NCBI GenBank assembly: GCA_022563535.1
Contig: JADFNE010000001.1
Coordinates: 85,964 to 149,963 of the forward strand
Length of the DNA stretch: 64,000 bases
Direction of reading: 5' to 3'
Origin: Myxococcales bacterium
Lineage (GTDB): Bacteria; Myxococcota_A; UBA9160; UBA4427
Below, one piece after another: positions 5,040-15,973 of this stretch; position 1 is the first letter of the stretch, and every line of letters begins with the position of its first letter. The notes beneath the pieces were generated by a model. The model saw only the letters and a list, made by a program, of their open reading frames with translations, made no database searches and had not been told where the DNA came from. The translations under genes were made by a program, and so were the position numbers.

Positions 5040-6086
5040 GTGCAAATCACGATGGTCAAAAAGCGCCTTGCGAACGGCAACCCTTGCGACAAGTGCGCGC
5101 AGACCGAAGAGATGTTGCGAAGGCGGGGGTTCTGGGATCGGATCGACGAGGTGGTCTGGGTCATCGAGGGAGACGACCAGTCCGAGGGCGCGAAGCTGGG
5201 CAAGACTCATGGCGTCGAGGTCGCTCCATTCTTCATTCTGAATCACGAGGACGGCAGCGTTGCGGTCTATACAAGTCCCCTGCGCTTGATTCGGGACCAT
5301 TTCTCGGCGCCGGCCCCCGAGTCCGTGGCCCCCCCGGAGATCGTCGCTTCGCCCTCGATGAACGCCGATGAAATTTCCGAACTCAACCAGCGATTTTCAC
5401 AAGCCGCCAACGCCGCCGACCTGGTTCGGTTCGCACTCGAGCGTTTCAAAGATCGATGCGCGATCCCATTGACGGGCGCCGAAGACGTGGTTCTGCTCGA
5501 CATGGCGTCCAAGACAGGCCTCCCCTTTCGCGCCTTCTTCGTCGATTCGGGGCGCCAGCACAACGAGACCTACGCGCTGATCGACAAACTGCGGCAGCAC
5601 TACGGAATTGAAATCGCCTGTACGCTCCCCAACCCTGAAAAGCTCGTCGCGCTACTCAATGAGAAGGGGCAGAACAGCTTCTTGCGGGACGGCCACCGGG
5701 AGTGTTGTGAAATTCGCCGGGCAGAACCGCTTTCGCGCGCGTTGCAGGACTGCGATGCGTGGATCGGACTGCAAACGATCGGCCGCGAGCTTTCTGCACC
5801 GCCCGCGTCGGAAGTCGCCGCGCTGGATTTGCTGCATCGCGGGGCGAGGGGCCCGCTCATTCGATTCAGTCCCCTTGCGAATTGGGATTCCAACAAAATT
5901 TGGAGCTATGTTCGCAAGCACGAAGTTCCCCACAACGAATTGTACGCGGCGGGCTATCGGCTGATCGGTTGTCAACCGTGCACACGCCCGGTTCGTCCCG
6001 ATCAGGCAGATCGCGAAGGGCTTTGGTGGTGGGAAGACGAACCCGATACACCCGAGAGTCGGCGACAAACTGGTGATGGGATCTAA
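5040..6086 (+). CDS. Thioredoxin/glutaredoxin-like domain fused to an APS/PAPS reductase (CysH)-like domain, catalytic C-terminus missing
   Basis: A 348-residue two-domain protein. Residues about 1-85 are thioredoxin-like, with a CxxC (Cys16-Asp-Lys-Cys19) and a cis-Pro-like VAPFFIL. Residues about 110-335 follow the adenylyl-sulfate reductase pattern: TGAEDVVLLDMA, VDSGRQHNETYALID, DGHRECCEIRR (Cys222, Cys223) and GCQPCTRP (Cys311, Cys314), the four ligands of the 4Fe-4S cluster in APS reductases, then EGLWWWED. The chain ends 18 residues after this without the family's KECGLH motif, whose Cys is the catalytic nucleophile; no other frame restores it. The GLRREQS substrate loop is also replaced. 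GTG 5040 has GGAG nine bases ahead; ATG 5052 is possible. It may be a divergent sulfonucleotide reductase or a related enzyme. Confidence 0.82.
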   Translation: MQITMVKKRLANGNPCDKCAQTEEMLRRRGFWDRIDEVVWVIEGDDQSEGAKLGKTHGVEVAPFFILNHEDGSVAVYTSPLRLIRDHFSAPAPESVAPPEIVASPSMNADEISELNQRFSQAANAADLVRFALERFKDRCAIPLTGAEDVVLLDMASKTGLPFRAFFVDSGRQHNETYALIDKLRQHYGIEIACTLPNPEKLVALLNEKGQNSFLRDGHRECCEIRRAEPLSRALQDCDAWIGLQTIGRELSAPPASEVAALDLLHRGARGPLIRFSPLANWDSNKIWSYVRKHEVPHNELYAAGYRLIGCQPCTRPVRPDQADREGLWWWEDEPDTPESRRQTGDGI

Positions 6087-7542: not shown

Positions 7543-10395
7543 ATGGATCGCAGTGGAAATGCAAGGTTCGCGACCCTTCGCGACGCCCTGGAACGTCAAG
7601 TCGAGAATCGAAGATTGTGGCTGAGCGTCGCAGTGCTGTTGTGTCTCGCTCACTTTGCGCGCTTGTATGACCCCAATCAGGCGCTGCTAACCGACACCCG
7701 CTACTTCACCTTCTTCGGAATGGAAGTTGCGAAGGGTGCGGTTCCTCACCTCGATTTCTTTGACAACAAGACCCAGCTTGCGAGTCTGGTGGCGGGTGGG
7801 TTCGTGTGGTTCGGCGACGTTTTGGGCCGGGGGGCCGTCGAATCCATTCGCCTCGGCAACCTTGGCCTCGCCGCCTTTGGGGGTGTGCTGCTGTTCCTGC
7901 TTCACCGCATTTTTGCGGCGGGGCGCTCGATTCCTGGCCTGCTCGGACTGTTGCCGTACCTGGGCCTTACCTACATCGGAACCCTGGCGGCCACCGGGTC
8001 CATTCCCAAATTGATCATGGCAGTGAGTGCAACCGCGGCCGCCCTTGCGGTCGCGCGAGGCCGATGGTTTGTCGCCGGGCTGGTTTCGGCAATTGCACCA
8101 CTCGATTGGCAGATCGGATTATTCGCTTGCGTCGGAGTGGCGGCGGCCGCCGCGATTGATGCGAACCCACGGCGAGCGCTGATGCAAAGTGCGCTTGGGA
8201 TTGCAGCCGTGGCGGCGATCTTCATCGGCTACTTCGCGCTCAACGGTGCGCTCGAATTGATGCTCGCCCACACCGTGGGGGCATCGTTTGCGCGGGGTGC
8301 CGAGGCTGGAGGACCGTTCTTCAAATTCGCAGCAATTCAACGGGGGTTGCTGTGGCATTGCGCCGGCGAATTCTGGTTGATCGGTCTGGGCATGATCGGC
8401 ACAGTGATCCTTCCGTTCTGGTTTCGCAGCGAGCGCTTTCGCAGCATGCGCAAGCCGCTGCTGGTGGTCGCCGTCTTTCACTATGGCATTGTGGCCTTCA
8501 GCTGCATCGACTTCCAGGGGTCGGGAGACACCATGCTCTTGCTGCACAGTGTGGCGTTCTTTGCTGGAGTTACGCTCGTGTCGCTGTACCTGGGCCTTGA
8601 CGAATACCAGCAGCGACAGACCGGCATGACGAACCCATGGCTCGGTGCCATGGTGGTTGCGATCGTGCTCGTGTTGACGCGTCCAGTTTTTTCCGAGCCC
8701 GCCAAATTGTGGACGCCCGATTCGCCGGTCAGCGTCACGCTCCAGGATCAATTGACCATGGCGCGGAGGCTCGCTCCGATACTCAAAGATCGAAGTCTGC
8801 TGGTACTCGGTCCAGCCGAGATGTTGGTCTTGGGTGGTTTCTCGCACGAATCCATCTATGTCTTCTGGAACGACGCCACAAAATTCGAGTATGCGCGAAC
8901 GCATCCGGACAAGTCTTCGAATCTCCTCGCCGACCTGGTGGCAGAGTTGAAACCCGGCGTGATTCTCGCGAGCCGGTACCAGAGCCTGCCCCCCGACATT
9001 CCCTATCGAGGAGTCGATCTAGGCACGCCCGGTGGTTACGCGGTCAGGGTCTTTGTCCGCCTGGCGGCTTCCGATGAATCCCCAGGTGACGCCACGGGGA
9101 ATTTGTCTCCTTCTCTTGCGCCCACCCCCCGCGCCACACGCGTGGTACTCATCACACTCGATACCCTGAGACGCGACAGCTTCGAACCCAATGCTGAAAT
9201 CGGCGAAGCCGGGTCGAGTGCCATGCCCCTCACCCGGGACTGGGCGCACAATGGAGTCGTCTTCGACCGCCACTACGCGGCGAGTTCCACTACCCAACCC
9301 ACCCACGCGAGCCTGCTGACGGGGCTGCATCCCTGGCAGCACGGAGTCTCTCGCAATGGACAGGCCCTCGCCGCCGAGCACACCACCTTGGCAGAAGTCT
9401 TTTCCCAACACGGATTTCATACGGGAGCCGTCGTCTCGTCTTTTCCGCTGCACCGAAGCTTCGGGTTCGATCAAGGGTTCGATCGCTTCGACGATTCTTT
9501 TGAGATCCCGGTCACCATGGAATGGTCGGGACGTGCGGTACCCAATGGCGCCTTTTACTCACTCGGGAGCTCCATCACCGCAAAGGCATTGGCGATGCTG
9601 GACCAGCTCGAAGGGCCGCAGCAATTTTTCTGGTTTCACTACTTTGATCTTCACGAACCGTATGGCGATGCAGATGCAGAGGGCAGGGACGATGTCGTGA
9701 AGCTCGCAGAAATCTATGCGCGTCTCGAGAGCGGCGACCCCAATGTAGTCTCAATGGTGGAGCATGCAAAGCGGCGTTACGAAGACGACGCCCGAGTTCT
9801 CGACCGTGAACTCGATCAATTGATTCGCCGCTTGTATCGCGACGCCGAAACGGTCGACACCCATCTGCTGGTCGTTTCCGATCATGGCGAAAGCTTCGGA
9901 GAGTTGGGCTCCCTGGGACACGGAAAGCGCCTGAGCGACGAGTTGATCCATGTCCCGTGTTTCATGATTTCGCCCAGGCTCGATCCAGGACGCATCGACG
10001 TACCGGTCGGCTCGATCGATGTCCCTGTCACCCTGCTGTCTCTTGCGGGGTTCTCCGATGATTCGGGTCTGACGAGTTCCGGGCGAGACATGACCAGGGC
10101 TTTGCCGAGCACGCGCAGCGTCTTCGGCATGCGGAGGACATTCGCCGAGCCCTTCCATGAGTTGCGTCTCGACGGTCGGCGACACTTGCTTCTGGATCCC
10201 GTCTTCTTCGTTGCGAATTCTGGGGGAGTCACGATCGGAAACGCCGAACAGATCATCAGAGGGCCGGACCTGGAAGACTCGAACGTTCGCTCACTGTTCA
10301 AAGTGTTCGCGCAGGAACACGCCAACGCTGGTTCCGGTTCGGTATTGAGCGAGGAGTCGAGAGCGGCGCTAGAAGCACTGGGCTACGTGCAATAA
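7543..10395 (+). CDS. GT-C-like polytopic membrane domain fused to a C-terminal sulfatase-fold (alkaline phosphatase superfamily) domain
   Basis: 950 residues. Residues about 25-400 form about ten membrane segments with a GT39/ArnT-like first loop (VPHLDFFDNKTQLASL), as in lipid-linked-sugar glycosyltransferases. From about 530 a sulfatase fold begins: LITLDTLRRD (metal Asp540), TQPTHASLLTG (nucleophile position) and SDHGESFGE (Asp780, His781). Sulfatases carry Cys or Ser at the nucleophile site (CxPSR); here it is Thr584, as in phosphoethanolamine- and phosphoglycerol-transferase branches. A phospho-group or other headgroup transferase or hydrolase acting on a membrane glycolipid is a reasonable guess, not shown. 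GGGAG precedes the ATG. The protein ends LEALGYVQ, a tail shared with the next two genes. Confidence 0.85.
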   Translation: MDRSGNARFATLRDALERQVENRRLWLSVAVLLCLAHFARLYDPNQALLTDTRYFTFFGMEVAKGAVPHLDFFDNKTQLASLVAGGFVWFGDVLGRGAVESIRLGNLGLAAFGGVLLFLLHRIFAAGRSIPGLLGLLPYLGLTYIGTLAATGSIPKLIMAVSATAAALAVARGRWFVAGLVSAIAPLDWQIGLFACVGVAAAAAIDANPRRALMQSALGIAAVAAIFIGYFALNGALELMLAHTVGASFARGAEAGGPFFKFAAIQRGLLWHCAGEFWLIGLGMIGTVILPFWFRSERFRSMRKPLLVVAVFHYGIVAFSCIDFQGSGDTMLLLHSVAFFAGVTLVSLYLGLDEYQQRQTGMTNPWLGAMVVAIVLVLTRPVFSEPAKLWTPDSPVSVTLQDQLTMARRLAPILKDRSLLVLGPAEMLVLGGFSHESIYVFWNDATKFEYARTHPDKSSNLLADLVAELKPGVILASRYQSLPPDIPYRGVDLGTPGGYAVRVFVRLAASDESPGDATGNLSPSLAPTPRATRVVLITLDTLRRDSFEPNAEIGEAGSSAMPLTRDWAHNGVVFDRHYAASSTTQPTHASLLTGLHPWQHGVSRNGQALAAEHTTLAEVFSQHGFHTGAVVSSFPLHRSFGFDQGFDRFDDSFEIPVTMEWSGRAVPNGAFYSLGSSITAKALAMLDQLEGPQQFFWFHYFDLHEPYGDADAEGRDDVVKLAEIYARLESGDPNVVSMVEHAKRRYEDDARVLDRELDQLIRRLYRDAETVDTHLLVVSDHGESFGELGSLGHGKRLSDELIHVPCFMISPRLDPGRIDVPVGSIDVPVTLLSLAGFSDDSGLTSSGRDMTRALPSTRSVFGMRRTFAEPFHELRLDGRRHLLLDPVFFVANSGGVTIGNAEQIIRGPDLEDSNVRSLFKVFAQEHANAGSGSVLSEESRAALEALGYVQ

Positions 10396-10460
10396 CGAAT
10401 CGAGAACGTTCGAGTCAGGGTCTTGCGAGTAGACGTGGGAGTTGTCGTTCAGCCGTTGAC

Positions 10461-13400
10461 TCACTGCAGATAACCCAGGGCTTCGAGGGTGGCGCGCAAC
10501 TCGTCGTTGATCAGCTCCACGTTGGCGTGGCGTTGGGGATGGGCAGTTGACCACGCTTCCAACTGCTCGCGCAGTTCGAGGACCACGCTGCGGTTCTCCG
10601 TCGCTACGTTTCGGGTCTCAGCCGGGTCACTCGGCAAGTGGTAGAGCTCTTCGTGGCTACCGCGTAGCAAATACTTCCAGACACTTGTGCGCAGGCCGAT
10701 CAACTCTTCGGCAATCAAGAGGTCGCGAGTCGCGGTTCCCATCACGCTGTGGAGTCGTCGAACCCTGCGATTTTTCGCTCCGCTATTCGAGTACAGCGGA
10801 TGCTGGAGGAAAGCCGCGTCCCGCGCCGGGTCCCCTTTGTCAAAGAGTTTGCGGCCCAGGAATTCGGCTGGGACCGGCAGGTCGGCCAAGGCCAGCAGCG
10901 TAGGGGCCACGTCGAGGATTTCGACAACCTCGCTGCGGCGAACGCCGGCGGCAACGCGACCCTTGGCGCGAAAGATCAGCGGGATGCGCGCTGCCCCTTC
11001 GTATAGACAGTCGGAGTGCTCGAAGAAGATTCCCTTCTCGAAGCACTCCCCGTGGTCGGCCGTCAAGGCCATTGCCGTGCGTTCAGCCGAAGCCGAGGCA
11101 TCGAGAGCCTTCATCAGTCTTCCGATCCAATGATCCGTGTATTCAATCTCTCCCTGGTAGAGCGAGATGGCGCGTTCCACCGCCTCCTCGGGCAAATCTC
11201 CGCCGTGTTGCTCCGCAAGGGCCATCAAGTTTTCAATGCTGGCTTCTTGCAGTGTCCTGGCGATGGGTCCGTCCGCCACGGGTGCGAATTCGGCGGGTGG
11301 TGCGTACGGCGTATGGGGGTCAAAGAAATGGACCCAGATAAAAAATGGTTTATCTCGGGGCCGCTCGCCGAGCCAATTTACCGCCGCGCTGACCACATGT
11401 TCCGCAGATCGAGTTCTCGCGGTGCGTGGGAAATCAAAATGTTCAAAGCCGCGTTCCGCCCCGGAGTCGGGGCCGAGCAGCGTGACGCTAACAAAGGCCG
11501 CCGTGGCATAGCCGTGTTCGCGGAACACTTCGGCCAGGGTACGAAAGCTCTGTTCCAGCGAAATCTTGTTGTTCACCACGCCGTGATCCCGCGGATAGAG
11601 CGAAGTGAAGAGCGAGTAGTGGGAGGGGCGGGTCATCTGCATTGGGCTGATCGCAGCCTCGAACAGGGTTCCCTGGCTGGCGAGCTTCGCAATGTTTGGA
11701 GTCGCCTTGGACTTTTCGCGATAAGGTCCAGTACGGTCGGCACGCAGGGTGTCGACGGTGATCAACACCACGTTGGTCGCGCTGGATTCGACGAGTGGAG
11801 TTGACTCTGAACACGCGCAAAGAGAACTCATGAGTCCAAGGACGAGGGCGGTGGTCAGTGCGGACTTGGTCTCCGCACGTCGGCGCATCCAGAAGACGTA
11901 GACGATCCCCAGGAGCGTGAGCACGCTCATGGCCGCGCCCACAAAGAAGGCCCGCGGGCGGTAGGCGAGTTCCACGGTCTCACGCGCGATGGGAAGATTG
12001 ATCCCGATCACGCCGTCGAATTCGGCAAGCGAGAGCGGTTCGCCTCCCACGACCTGCCAGCCCGGGTCATAGTTGATGTTCAGCTTCAGCAACCCGCCGC
12101 CGCCGTCGGTCGAAACCCGAACTCGATTGGGCGTCAAAGAGAGTCCAGTGATGGTTCCATTTCCGCTCGCAATCGCCGCTTCGCCCCAATAGCCGGGATC
12201 CTCCGCCGACAGCGCGGCAGAGGGAAAGGGAAGGGTCTTGAACGCCCAGCGCATGCCGCGGTTTTCGAGAACCGCCGGATAACTGCCACTCGGCCAATTG
12301 GGATGCACGTCGTAGAGCGCCGCTTTGCGATAACGCTCGATGAACGGCGAGTAACTGTAGTGCTGGCGGAAGTCTCCACGGGTTTCGAGTTCGAGGGGTG
12401 GAATCGAGAACGCCACCTTGAAGATCGCACCGTTCACAAAAATGAGATTGGCCGCGACGGCAATGCAGATGATCAGGGAGGCGATGCGCGCTCGAGTTGG
12501 ATTGGCCAGTTTTTCGCGCAGCACCCCGAGCCCCACCCCGGCAAGCAGTGCAATACAGAGCAGCGCGTAGACGTTGAATCGGCTCGGAACCCGCAGCATC
12601 GAGAGTCCCGGTAGCTGATGAAGGAAGTGCCAAAGATCGATCGGTGCCGCGGGCCCCAGGCTGACCCACAGTGCAAAGAAGCCGCTCAAAATCCACGATA
12701 CATGCTTGCGCGGTACTGCATAGATCGCGAGACCGACCAGCAGCAGAGGGACGATGCCGACGTAGCTGCCCACGTTCAGGACATAGGGCATCCACAGTTG
12801 GGGATCATGGGCCTGGGCTCGAGACAAGAACATCTGAAAGAACGAATCGAGGGCGCCGGGAGTAAAGGGCGCGCCGTAGAACGGGTCTTCGTTGGTCTCG
12901 CGTGGATATCGCCCGACCAGTTCGAAGACTGGAATCAGCTTGATTGCCGCGAGGCCCACCGCCACACCCCCAATGGAGACGAGCCCGACGAGCGGGCGCA
13001 AGCCTCGCATTTCGACGGACCGAGCGATTGCGTACACGGCGAGAAAAACTCCAAAGAAGGCAAACTGGTACGGCCCGCCGTCGAGCACGATCAGACTGTA
13101 GAAGATGCCTCCGCAACACGCGGCGCGCGCACTCGGCTGTTCGATAAAACGATCGATGGCGACCAGCACGAAGGGAACCCAGGCGATGGCGATCCATTCG
13201 AACTGACCGTGAGTGAGTCGCTGGGCGTAGACCGCAGCAAATGAGAACACGATTGCCGAGAGACAGGCTTCAATTTCTCCCAGTCCGCGGCTTCGGGCGA
13301 GCCTGAACATGCCGAGTTGCGCGATGGCCAGATAAATGAAGATGCAGAGCTTGATTCCGACCAGGGTTCCAAACAGGAGGATCGGCAAAAAACTCGGAGA

Positions 13401-13634
13401 CCAGACGTGATTGAGGGTGTTGCCCGCGAGGCTGATGCCACCGCCCAGATAGGGATTCCAGAGTGGGATCTGGCCGTAGTCTACGAGAGTCGTGCGCGCG
13501 ACTTCGAGCAGGGTTTGCTGGTAGTCCCAATCCCAGAAACCCCAGTTGTGAAAGTGCGCGATCACCCAGCGCAGGAAAACGGCGTCCAGCACCAGGAAGA
13601 TCAGCGAGAGTTTGAGGGCGCGTTGCCGTTCCAC
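10461..13634 (-). CDS. YfhO-like polytopic membrane domain fused to a C-terminal sulfatase-fold domain
   Basis: 1057 residues. The N-terminal 400 residues hold about ten hydrophobic segments, starting with an external loop HFHNWGFWDWDYQQ and PLWNPYLGGG, the loop style of YfhO/GT-C membrane proteins. A periplasmic-looking region and one more membrane segment (about 575-595) follow. The sulfatase fold runs from about 620: LITVDTLRAD (Asp628), MTRPSHYSLFTS (Thr668 at the nucleophile position) and TADHGECFEKG. It starts on GTG 13634 only two bases after the stop of the upstream sulfatase-fold gene, which implies translational coupling. It ends LEALGYLQ. The substrate is unknown; Thr in place of Cys/Ser makes true sulfatase chemistry unlikely. 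Confidence 0.85.
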   Translation of the reverse strand: MERQRALKLSLIFLVLDAVFLRWVIAHFHNWGFWDWDYQQTLLEVARTTLVDYGQIPLWNPYLGGGISLAGNTLNHVWSPSFLPILLFGTLVGIKLCIFIYLAIAQLGMFRLARSRGLGEIEACLSAIVFSFAAVYAQRLTHGQFEWIAIAWVPFVLVAIDRFIEQPSARAACCGGIFYSLIVLDGGPYQFAFFGVFLAVYAIARSVEMRGLRPLVGLVSIGGVAVGLAAIKLIPVFELVGRYPRETNEDPFYGAPFTPGALDSFFQMFLSRAQAHDPQLWMPYVLNVGSYVGIVPLLLVGLAIYAVPRKHVSWILSGFFALWVSLGPAAPIDLWHFLHQLPGLSMLRVPSRFNVYALLCIALLAGVGLGVLREKLANPTRARIASLIICIAVAANLIFVNGAIFKVAFSIPPLELETRGDFRQHYSYSPFIERYRKAALYDVHPNWPSGSYPAVLENRGMRWAFKTLPFPSAALSAEDPGYWGEAAIASGNGTITGLSLTPNRVRVSTDGGGGLLKLNINYDPGWQVVGGEPLSLAEFDGVIGINLPIARETVELAYRPRAFFVGAAMSVLTLLGIVYVFWMRRRAETKSALTTALVLGLMSSLCACSESTPLVESSATNVVLITVDTLRADRTGPYREKSKATPNIAKLASQGTLFEAAISPMQMTRPSHYSLFTSLYPRDHGVVNNKISLEQSFRTLAEVFREHGYATAAFVSVTLLGPDSGAERGFEHFDFPRTARTRSAEHVVSAAVNWLGERPRDKPFFIWVHFFDPHTPYAPPAEFAPVADGPIARTLQEASIENLMALAEQHGGDLPEEAVERAISLYQGEIEYTDHWIGRLMKALDASASAERTAMALTADHGECFEKGIFFEHSDCLYEGAARIPLIFRAKGRVAAGVRRSEVVEILDVAPTLLALADLPVPAEFLGRKLFDKGDPARDAAFLQHPLYSNSGAKNRRVRRLHSVMGTATRDLLIAEELIGLRTSVWKYLLRGSHEELYHLPSDPAETRNVATENRSVVLELREQLEAWSTAHPQRHANVELINDELRATLEALGYLQ

Positions 13635-13636
13635 GG

Positions 13637-15151
13637 TCAGGGGGTATCCCGAGTGGTGTCGGTTGATTTGGCTTTGGCGGAATTGGATTCGGGCGGCAGA
13701 TAGCCGAGGGCTTCGAGCGCGCGGCGCGATTCATCGTCGAGGAGAAGCTGGACTTCCTCGACCGCCGGGAGCGCCGGCAGTTCCAGCATGAATTCGCGGT
13801 AGCGATCGATCATCGCCTGCACGCGTTCGGTTTGTTGCTCGGCGAGATTGCGTAGCTCCCCAGGATCTTCCCGGAGGTCATAGAGCTCTGGGCCGGAACG
13901 CGGGATCACCAGCCGGTAGCGCCCGTCCGTCACGCCGAACCAGCGCAGGGGACTATCCGCCTTGTGGAGCGAATGGGGGAAGATCCTTTCATCGGGCAAG
14001 GAGCGGGAAATCAAGCTAATCCCGCGAGCCGCGACGGCAGGCAAGCCAAAGGCGTCGAGCACACTCGGCAAGAAGTCGAGGTGGCCCACCAGGCTTTGGG
14101 TCGACGGCTTCGGCATGTCCATCGGGTAGCGGATGACGAGGGGAACGCGCACTTCTTCGTCGTATAAATTTGCCTCGTGGGTGAACCAGTAATTGTGTTC
14201 GCCGAGAGACTCTCCGTGATCGGAGGTAAAGACGACAAGGCTGTCGTCAAAGACGTCGTGCGCTGCGAGCCAGTCGAGCAGCCTCCCCACTTCGTTGTCG
14301 AAAAAACGAATCTCTTCGTCGTAGCGATCACGATAGAAGCCAGGGCGGCGCTCGCCGTCGAGGATTTGATAGTGCGGGATCTGGCCGTACCCGTGCTGGG
14401 TCTGACCGAGTTGGGGCAACAAGCCGCCGGTCCCCTTGCTCTCGAAGATTCCGCGGTACCGATCGGGTGGGGTGTAGGGGCCGTGGGGATCCTGGTAGTG
14501 GACCCACAGAAAAAAGCGTTCCGGCGCTTGCTGGTTTTGTTCGAGCCAGGCGATCGCCGCGTCCGTGGTGGCATCGGCAGGTCGCTCGAAGTGCCCCTTG
14601 CGCAAACCCGCACTGCTGCCCATTTGATCGTCGTAGTGTCCAAAGCCCTGGGCAATGCCCACGTCGCCTAGCAGTTTGTCCGCGCGGCGCAGGGCCCAGT
14701 TCGAAACGATCGCGGCGCTCTTGATGTTGGCATTGCCGAGAATCTCGGCCAACGTGGTCACGCTTTGCGGCATCAGCGTGCGGTTGCCTCCGGCCACCCC
14801 CAGTTCATCAGGCATGCGACTGGTGAGCAGGCTGCTGAGCGCGGGGTTGGTATGGGGAGCCGTGGCGTAGGCCCGCTCGAATACGACGGAGTTCTGGGCG
14901 AATGCGTCGAGGTTCGGGCTGACGTCGCGATCGTATCCGTACATCCCGAGGTGATCTGCACGCAAGGTGTCGCAGCTGATCAGGATGACGGCGCGAACCG
15001 GTTCGTGAGTTGCTTCGGCGCAGGCCAGCGGTCCCAGCATCGCATTCGCGCAGAGGCCAACCGTCGCAACGCGCCTGGCGTCGAAACACGGCACGACGGA
15101 GTAGCAGATGCTCGCGAATCGAATTGCCGCTCTGATCAATTGGCTTTCCAT
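13637..15151 (-). CDS. Exported sulfatase-fold hydrolase (alkaline phosphatase superfamily)
   Basis: A 504-residue protein. The N-terminus looks like a secretion signal ending near LACAEA. Then comes the sulfatase core: ILISCDTLRAD (Asp61), HTNPALSSLLTS (Thr101 where sulfatases have Cys/Ser), a FLWVHYQDPHGPYTP metal/substrate loop, and TSDHGESLGEH. The C-terminus carries LEALGYLPPES, the same tail as the two membrane fusions, with a short polar extension. ATG 15151 is chosen because the open frame beyond it lies antisense to the spermidine-synthase-like gene. It is first in a coupled pair with the YfhO-like fusion, so the two probably act on the same envelope substrate. Confidence 0.85.
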   Translation of the reverse strand: MESQLIRAAIRFASICYSVVPCFDARRVATVGLCANAMLGPLACAEATHEPVRAVILISCDTLRADHLGMYGYDRDVSPNLDAFAQNSVVFERAYATAPHTNPALSSLLTSRMPDELGVAGGNRTLMPQSVTTLAEILGNANIKSAAIVSNWALRRADKLLGDVGIAQGFGHYDDQMGSSAGLRKGHFERPADATTDAAIAWLEQNQQAPERFFLWVHYQDPHGPYTPPDRYRGIFESKGTGGLLPQLGQTQHGYGQIPHYQILDGERRPGFYRDRYDEEIRFFDNEVGRLLDWLAAHDVFDDSLVVFTSDHGESLGEHNYWFTHEANLYDEEVRVPLVIRYPMDMPKPSTQSLVGHLDFLPSVLDAFGLPAVAARGISLISRSLPDERIFPHSLHKADSPLRWFGVTDGRYRLVIPRSGPELYDLREDPGELRNLAEQQTERVQAMIDRYREFMLELPALPAVEEVQLLLDDESRRALEALGYLPPESNSAKAKSTDTTRDTP

Positions 15152-15292
15152 TTCTAGACGAACCGACGGGGCGATGATAGCTCGGAGTTGGGTCGAGGAC
15201 TCGACCCCGTCCCGCTCCATTCCCCATTTGCCATACCCGAAACTCCAGGATCTGGCATGCTTGTGTAGTTTCCCAAACCGCGACTGGATGAG

Positions 15293-15973
15293 ATGGCCAA
15301 ACCCTGGAAGACCCTCGATCGCGAAGACACGCCCCACGGTGTCCTCGAATTGCGAAAGCGGGACGAACACGAGTTCTTGATTACGATCGCCGGGCGCGTG
15401 CTGATGAACAGTCACGCCAACCGCTCGGAATTGACCCTCGCAACGTGTGTATGTGAGAAACTCGAGGGTTGCGCCGCACCCAGACTCCTGCTCGGAGGGC
15501 TGGGTATGGGGTGCACACTGTTGGCGGCGGTCGAGGGACTTCCCGACCAAGCATCGATCGAGGTCAGTGAAATCACACCCATCGTGGCGCGTTGGTGCGC
15601 CGGTCCCCTCGCCGGAATCAATCACAGCGCGCTCGACGATCCGCGGGTGCGGCTCAAGATCGAGGATGTGTCTCGAACCATCGCCAAACGCGCCGACGAT
15701 CGGAACGAACCCCGGTTCGACGCCATCGTGCTCGATTTGTACGAGGGCCCTCACGCGAACACCAATGCCAAGCGCGATCCCTTCTATGGAGCCATCGCCC
15801 TCGACGCCACCCGGCGGGCTCTCGCCGTCGGCGGGCTTTTTGCAATCTGGTCCGAAGCGCCCGATGTGGCCTTCGAAAAACGGGTCAAGACGATCGGCTT
15901 CGAACTCGAGTTGATCCGTTCGGGAAAGGGTGGCCGCCGGCACACGGTATACCTGGCCCAGCGCAGTCGCTGA
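15293..15973 (+). CDS. Spermidine-synthase-like methyltransferase-fold protein
   Basis: 226 residues with the Rossmann fold of spermidine/spermine synthases. Residues about 30-50 form the MNSHANRSELTLA gate-like block, LLLGGLGMGCTLLA is the nucleotide-loop motif, ISVE-type acidic end EVSEITPIV binds the ribose, and DAIVLDLYEGP stands where polyamine synthases have the active-site D(T/S)xDP. That last motif is altered, so aminopropyl transfer is uncertain. Such short proteins are widespread and mostly uncharacterised. It diverges from the sulfatase-fold gene (141-bp gap) and converges on the lipoprotein gene. Confidence 0.75.
   Translation: MAKPWKTLDREDTPHGVLELRKRDEHEFLITIAGRVLMNSHANRSELTLATCVCEKLEGCAAPRLLLGGLGMGCTLLAAVEGLPDQASIEVSEITPIVARWCAGPLAGINHSALDDPRVRLKIEDVSRTIAKRADDRNEPRFDAIVLDLYEGPHANTNAKRDPFYGAIALDATRRALAVGGLFAIWSEAPDVAFEKRVKTIGFELELIRSGKGGRRHTVYLAQRSR

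Follow-up and report, generated by a model that had tools for sequence, protein, structure and literature searches.

APS reductase (APR) is a gate of sulfate assimilation and its catalytic cysteine is treated as indispensable, yet one clade of APR-like proteins has dropped it. A member of this clade is encoded in the 64,000-nucleotide stretch of Myxococcales DNA that we analysed (hereafter, the window), where an APR-like domain without the catalytic cysteine follows an N-terminal redoxin domain. Is this a local accident, a new way of attacking the substrate or a protein that has taken up a different role?

The gene and its redoxin domain

The window genome encodes two proteins of PF01507, one of them from this gene. 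The GTG start of the gene is supported by homologues that open with MQITMVKKRL at the matching residue, and its frame and coordinates, as well as the positions of Cys16/Cys19, Cys222/223 and Cys311/314, are those given by the initial annotation of the window. Its features are as follows:

5040..6086 (+): whole gene, GTG start, TAA stop, 348 aa; redoxin domain, linker and Cys-less APS-reductase domain
5040..5306 (+): N-terminal redoxin domain, residues 1-89, predicted beta-alpha-beta-alpha-beta-beta-alpha (AF2 model, Foldseek, VIA)
5085..5096 (+): C16-x-K-C19 redox motif (C16-D-K-C19), from sequence, conserved in fusions
5223..5228 (+): A62-P63 dipeptide, invariant, at the cis-proline place of the thioredoxin fold
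5307..5363 (+): linker, variable in the alignment, pLDDT under 50 at residues 91-103
5364..6041 (+): APS-reductase (PP-loop) domain, residues 109-334, from the PF01507 and 2goy matches
5703..5708 (+): Cys222-Cys223, first [4Fe-4S] ligand pair, aligned to CC of 2goy, invariant in 20/20 fusions
5763..5813 (+): altered substrate loop, residues 242-258, in place of TGQRRDQSPATR
5970..5981 (+): Cys311-x-x-Cys314, second [4Fe-4S] ligand pair, invariant in 20/20 fusions
6006..6023 (+): altered HERxGR segment, residues 323-328 (PaAPR H240, R242, R245 by the 2goy alignment)
6042..6065 (+): replaced catalytic tail, residues 335-342, with residue 339 at the place of the KECGLH cysteine in a same-length alignment to the intact fusion L008
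6072..6083 (+): C-terminal G-D-G-I, a tail common to the canonical APRs of the window genome's class

A Pfam search with the N-terminal domain matched no family. Its AF2 model (pLDDT 97), for which the alignments were rebuilt without plasmid rows, is a confidently predicted thioredoxin/glutaredoxin-type fold, and thioredoxins are the top Foldseek matches (E 2e-3, prob 1.0). In VIA-align, the top ranks went to minimal redoxins of the glutaredoxin type (BC3987, Z 9.0; cGrx1, 8.7; Grx3, 8.3; NrdH, 8.3). VIA Z values of about 8 are sometimes unremarkable; the CxxC and the invariant Ala-Pro nonetheless occupy the places that the fold demands, with C16 and C19 at the start of helix 1 of the model and P63 before strand 3. 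The A62-P63 dipeptide is invariant across all aligned rows, including cyanobacterial standalone redoxins, and, going by the fold, P63 would be the cis-proline. The domain is thus predicted to be a glutaredoxin/NrdH-like redoxin of the thioredoxin superfamily.

A profile of this domain detected it in 21 of the 379 genomes of the phylum, as 20 APR fusions and one standalone copy; within the order its occurrence is patchy (9/80 genomes). Standalone CxxS versions directly follow cysH on two cyanobacterial plasmids, after sat-sir-cysH in Nostoc and after sat-cysH in Acaryochloris, and the cysH partners of both have catalytic-type ends (ECGFH and ECGLH). Since standalone copies lie directly after cysH in two cyanobacterial clusters, the domain appears to be tied to APS reductase independently of fusion. 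On sequence evidence, it is an APS-reductase-associated redoxin older than the loss of the cysteine. The cyanobacterial proteins themselves, both hypothetical (L055:4001-4336 and L056:4001-4336), can be assigned to the redoxin family as monothiol members. The standalone copy in genome G232 of the phylum (C309:26989-27240; L054, L101) is located apart from both APR genes of that genome.

Loss of catalytic residues in one clade

The reductase domain of the window protein matches PF01507 (E 2e-34), and its best match of solved structure by sequence is the P. aeruginosa APS reductase 2goy (PaAPR; E 2e-58), to which its model is also similar according to Foldseek (E 1.5e-22, TMt 0.89). With regard to APS reductase membership (TIGR02055 / EC 1.8.4.10), the PP-loop PAPS-reductase fold and the CC...CxxC ligands are present; the KECGLH cysteine, several phosphosulfate-site residues and the RDQS loop are absent. 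The TIGR02055 scores of the window protein (175.2 bits) and of the other Cys-less proteins (180-186) fail the curated cut-off of 235.3, which intact fusions exceed (250-258). All fusions, Cys-less ones included, clear the broader model NF002537 (cut-off 154), so that annotation pipelines would label the Cys-less proteins phosphoadenylyl-sulfate (CysH) reductases. The window protein stays far below the cut-off of the plant-type family TIGR00424 (192 bits against 553).

Among the 20 redoxin-APR fusions, 12 retain both RDQS and KECGLH and eight lack both. The Cys-less members are found in all four representatives of the window genus and in genomes G310, G350, G282 and G326; all belong to one order, spanning five genera in three families, and the reading frame is open in 8/8. 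In a tree from which the trait columns (loop, Arg segment and tail) were left out, these eight proteins, each of a different genome, group in one clade, with the intact fusion of G006 as its sister; support for the clade is moderate (91/87, 93% of bootstrap trees), the bootstrap being not fully settled. Apparently, the catalytic cysteine was lost once, in a clade of eight species. A redoxin placed before an Fe-S APS reductase is an established architecture, usually with the catalytic parts intact. A literature search, which had most subscription papers outside its reach, found no N-terminal redoxin-APR fusion or Cys-less APR; this is not evidence of absence.

These results change the initial picture of a chain that ends too soon. 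The intact fusion L008 has a tail of equal length with KECGLH inside it, which rules out a premature end of the window protein, and the loss in eight genomes together with the unchanged tail length rules out a sequencing error or a local frameshift. The proposed check of whether all homologues lack the terminal cysteine and keep the cluster ligands gave a split outcome: the ligands are kept in 20/20, but KECGLH is retained in 12/20. Such KECGLH-bearing homologues, which had been named as a sign of local truncation, do exist, but the window protein is no local truncation; it shares a single loss with the other species of the eight.

To follow the loss residue by residue, we counted conservation over the 20 fusions (12 intact against 8 Cys-less), with PaAPR numbers transferred through the 2goy alignment. 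Sites invariant in the 12 intact fusions and lost in the clade comprise loop 248-254, K275, S308, H323-E324-R325 and tail 338-342; in the substrate loop, five positions invariant in the intact set are lost in six to eight of the eight Cys-less proteins. The equivalents of PaAPR R171, H240 and C256 are lost in 8/8, that of H259 in 7/8, R242 in 5/8 and R245 in 4/8, and K144 is replaced by R in 5/8. Several of the lost positions (among PaAPR residues, R171, H240, H259, K144, R242 and R245) are ones that we take to touch the phosphosulfate of APS. The absence of KECGLH and of the RDQS loop, recognized from the start in the window protein, is common to eight genomes, but that list of losses was incomplete, as the equivalents of K144, R171, H240, R242 and R245 are affected too. 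Taken at face value, the Cys-less protein would no longer run the classic reaction, in which the cysteine attacks APS to give enzyme-S-sulfocysteine.

The four cluster cysteines (8/8), DxGRxH, KGxxSF and WWWE are retained throughout. CxxC likewise persists in each of the 12 intact fusions and in the seven Cys-less proteins that are readable there. Across the fusions, no cysteine is invariant apart from C16, C19 and the four cluster ligands, which rules out that another conserved cysteine supplies the catalytic one. The loop and tail replacements differ between two subclades, and K275R alone is a novelty common to the clade.

The two domains also differ in how strongly they are constrained. In 21/21 Cys-less pairs, as opposed to 8/66 intact pairs, the redoxin domain is better conserved than the APR core, and the ratio of mean distances (redoxin versus APR) is 0.76 (0.61-0.96) in the Cys-less set and 1.21 (1.03-1.48) in the intact set, an order held in 300/300 column bootstraps; these pairs lack statistical independence, and the Cys-less set covers less phylogenetic breadth than the intact one. 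In comparisons with unsaturated dS, NG86 puts dN/dS of the redoxin at about 0.06-0.14 and that of the reductase domain at 0.14-0.27; dS was saturated in several others. Low dN/dS and the reversal of domain distances together show that the Cys-less gene is maintained by purifying selection, with constraint moved towards the redoxin.

The shared C-terminus and the genomic context

Every readable APR of the window genome's class, canonical or fused, ends in G-x-G-I (L004, L009-L033, L073-L078). This includes canonical APRs of genomes without a fusion and all Cys-less members, which have kept the ending despite the loss of KECGLH; fusions of other classes do not have it. When the window genome was scanned for G-x-G-I endings, 38 of 39 sites could be read and the only clear genes among them were its two APRs. 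Because Sat also lacks the ending, a general tag of sulfur-assimilation enzymes is ruled out. A private C-terminus on two deeply split paralogues suggests either a common partner or exchange between genes, and G-x-G-I is possibly a recognition signal or the trace of such an exchange.

A second, canonical APR is encoded in 8/8 Cys-less genomes (that of the window genome, L004, ends in RECGIH), a co-occurrence that is weak evidence, since nearly all sampled genomes of the order carry a canonical APR. In 10 genomes outside the window genome's class, the intact fusion is the sole full-length APR match, which makes it presumably a working APS reductase; as MAGs are incomplete, the absence of a second APR is provisional. 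ATP sulfurylase is present in 7/8 Cys-less genomes, indicating that APS is made there. Across the clade, no conserved neighbour links the Cys-less gene to sulfate assimilation, and a conserved operon is ruled out, synteny (SppA-like, LepB-like and mutarotase-like genes) being confined to the genus.

The surroundings of the gene hold two further observations. One genus member has a sulfotransferase-like gene just upstream of the Cys-less fusion (L001:4925-5857), not conserved elsewhere. In the window itself, three adjoining large genes at 7543-15943 (950, 1057 and ~768 aa) have LITxDTLRxD motifs resembling the sulfatase/alkaline-phosphatase superfamily; two of them have membrane-type N-termini, and the usual CxPSR of sulfatases is not apparent by eye.

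Possible roles and relation to known enzymes

What, then, might the Cys-less protein do? Descended from a working APR with a redox partner of its own, it most likely has an accessory or a new role by now. We see about an even chance that it is a conserved pseudo-APS-reductase that has retained its redoxin and cluster-bearing scaffold functions and is probably accessory to the canonical APR. This reading draws on the 12 intact fusions, the standalone redoxin after cysH, the single clade and the canonical APR in 8/8 genomes, as well as on the joint loss of catalytic sites, the kept cluster cysteines, CxxC and WWWE, the redoxin constraint, dN/dS, G-x-G-I and ATP sulfurylase. The retained activity would be the dithiol chemistry of the redoxin domain, with the Fe-S pseudo-APR domain used for scaffolding and for docking or sensing; the protein would most likely work alongside the canonical APR. 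Where the fusion is intact, the redoxin would free sulfite from the S-sulfocysteine that forms on the same chain; in the Cys-less protein, we would guess, it does so for the canonical APR in trans, or controls it, and the shared G-x-G-I tail would suit a common partner. Against this reading, no conserved neighbour links the gene to sulfate assimilation, the co-occurrence with a canonical APR is weak evidence, and G-x-G-I also ends canonical APRs of genomes that have no fusion.

A different view, that the clade is an active sulfur enzyme whose redoxin CxxC acts as nucleophile on APS or another adenylylated sulfur compound held by the PP-loop domain, seems to us unlikely. Were Cys16 to attack APS in the old site and Cys19 to resolve the S-sulfocysteine and free sulfite, the protein would be a self-contained APR without KECGLH, a scheme with which the predicted flexibility of the linker, the unusual conservation of the redoxin domain in the clade and the invariance of these two cysteines alone besides the cluster ligands all agree. 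However, the canonical APR is always present in Cys-less genomes, the phosphosulfate-side residues disappeared together with the cysteine, and the redoxin domain also sits on intact enzymes and hence did not arise for cysteine replacement. As the CxxC domain predates the loss and the sulfate side is gone, replacement of the cysteine by CxxC, the first of two options raised initially, loses its main support, and such a relocated nucleophile is in our estimate quite improbable. The second option, a changed function or substrate, fits the clade-wide loss and purifying selection. Specifically, the cluster-bearing PP-loop domain might bind some other adenylylated or sulfur compound, with the redoxin reducing the product or an intermediate: adenosine-side and cluster motifs are kept, sulfate-side motifs are replaced, and Foldseek also weakly matches Fe-S PP-loop sulfurtransferases such as TtuA. 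We nevertheless hold a new substrate to be rather doubtful, given that the subclades differ in loop and tail and, with K275R alone in common, share no new active-site signature, and that an operon clue is absent. A decaying copy heading for loss would account for redundancy with the canonical APR, lost catalytic residues and the patchy distribution in the order, yet dN/dS far below 1 signals purifying selection since the loss, and open frames in all eight genomes with cluster cysteines (8/8) and CxxC (7/7) kept across five genera and three families make decay very improbable.

The 12 intact and eight Cys-less fusions constitute a natural separation-of-function set for the role of the puzzling [4Fe-4S] cluster apart from sulfur chemistry. 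They also bring to light a redoxin family, absent from Pfam, that is tied to APS reductase either by fusion or by a place beside cysH.

The closest counterparts of the window protein are the intact redoxin-APR fusions (e.g. L008, L042, L049), direct relatives from the same phylum with the same domain order and N-terminal domain, which differ in retaining RDQS and KECGLH and in passing the TIGR02055 cut-off. With P. aeruginosa CysH (2goy; TIGR02055) it has in common the fold, the four [4Fe-4S] cysteines, the nucleotide-side motifs and WWWE; it lacks the catalytic C-terminal cysteine, the RDQS loop and several phosphosulfate-site residues, and it has an added N-terminal redoxin domain. This domain resembles glutaredoxin/NrdH-type redoxins (BC3987, 3zit; cGrx1, 7c10; Grx3, 3grx) in predicted fold and CxxC position, but is only 11-22% identical to them, has no Pfam match and is fused to, or encoded beside, APS reductase. 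Plant-type APR (TIGR00424) joins a reductase to a C-terminal domain that has a thioredoxin fold and functions as a glutaredoxin (PMC6827007). The concept of reductase and redox partner on one chain is thus alike, whereas the domain order, as the initial annotation had correctly remarked of the N-terminal CxxC domain, is opposite, and the plant enzymes retain the catalytic cysteine.
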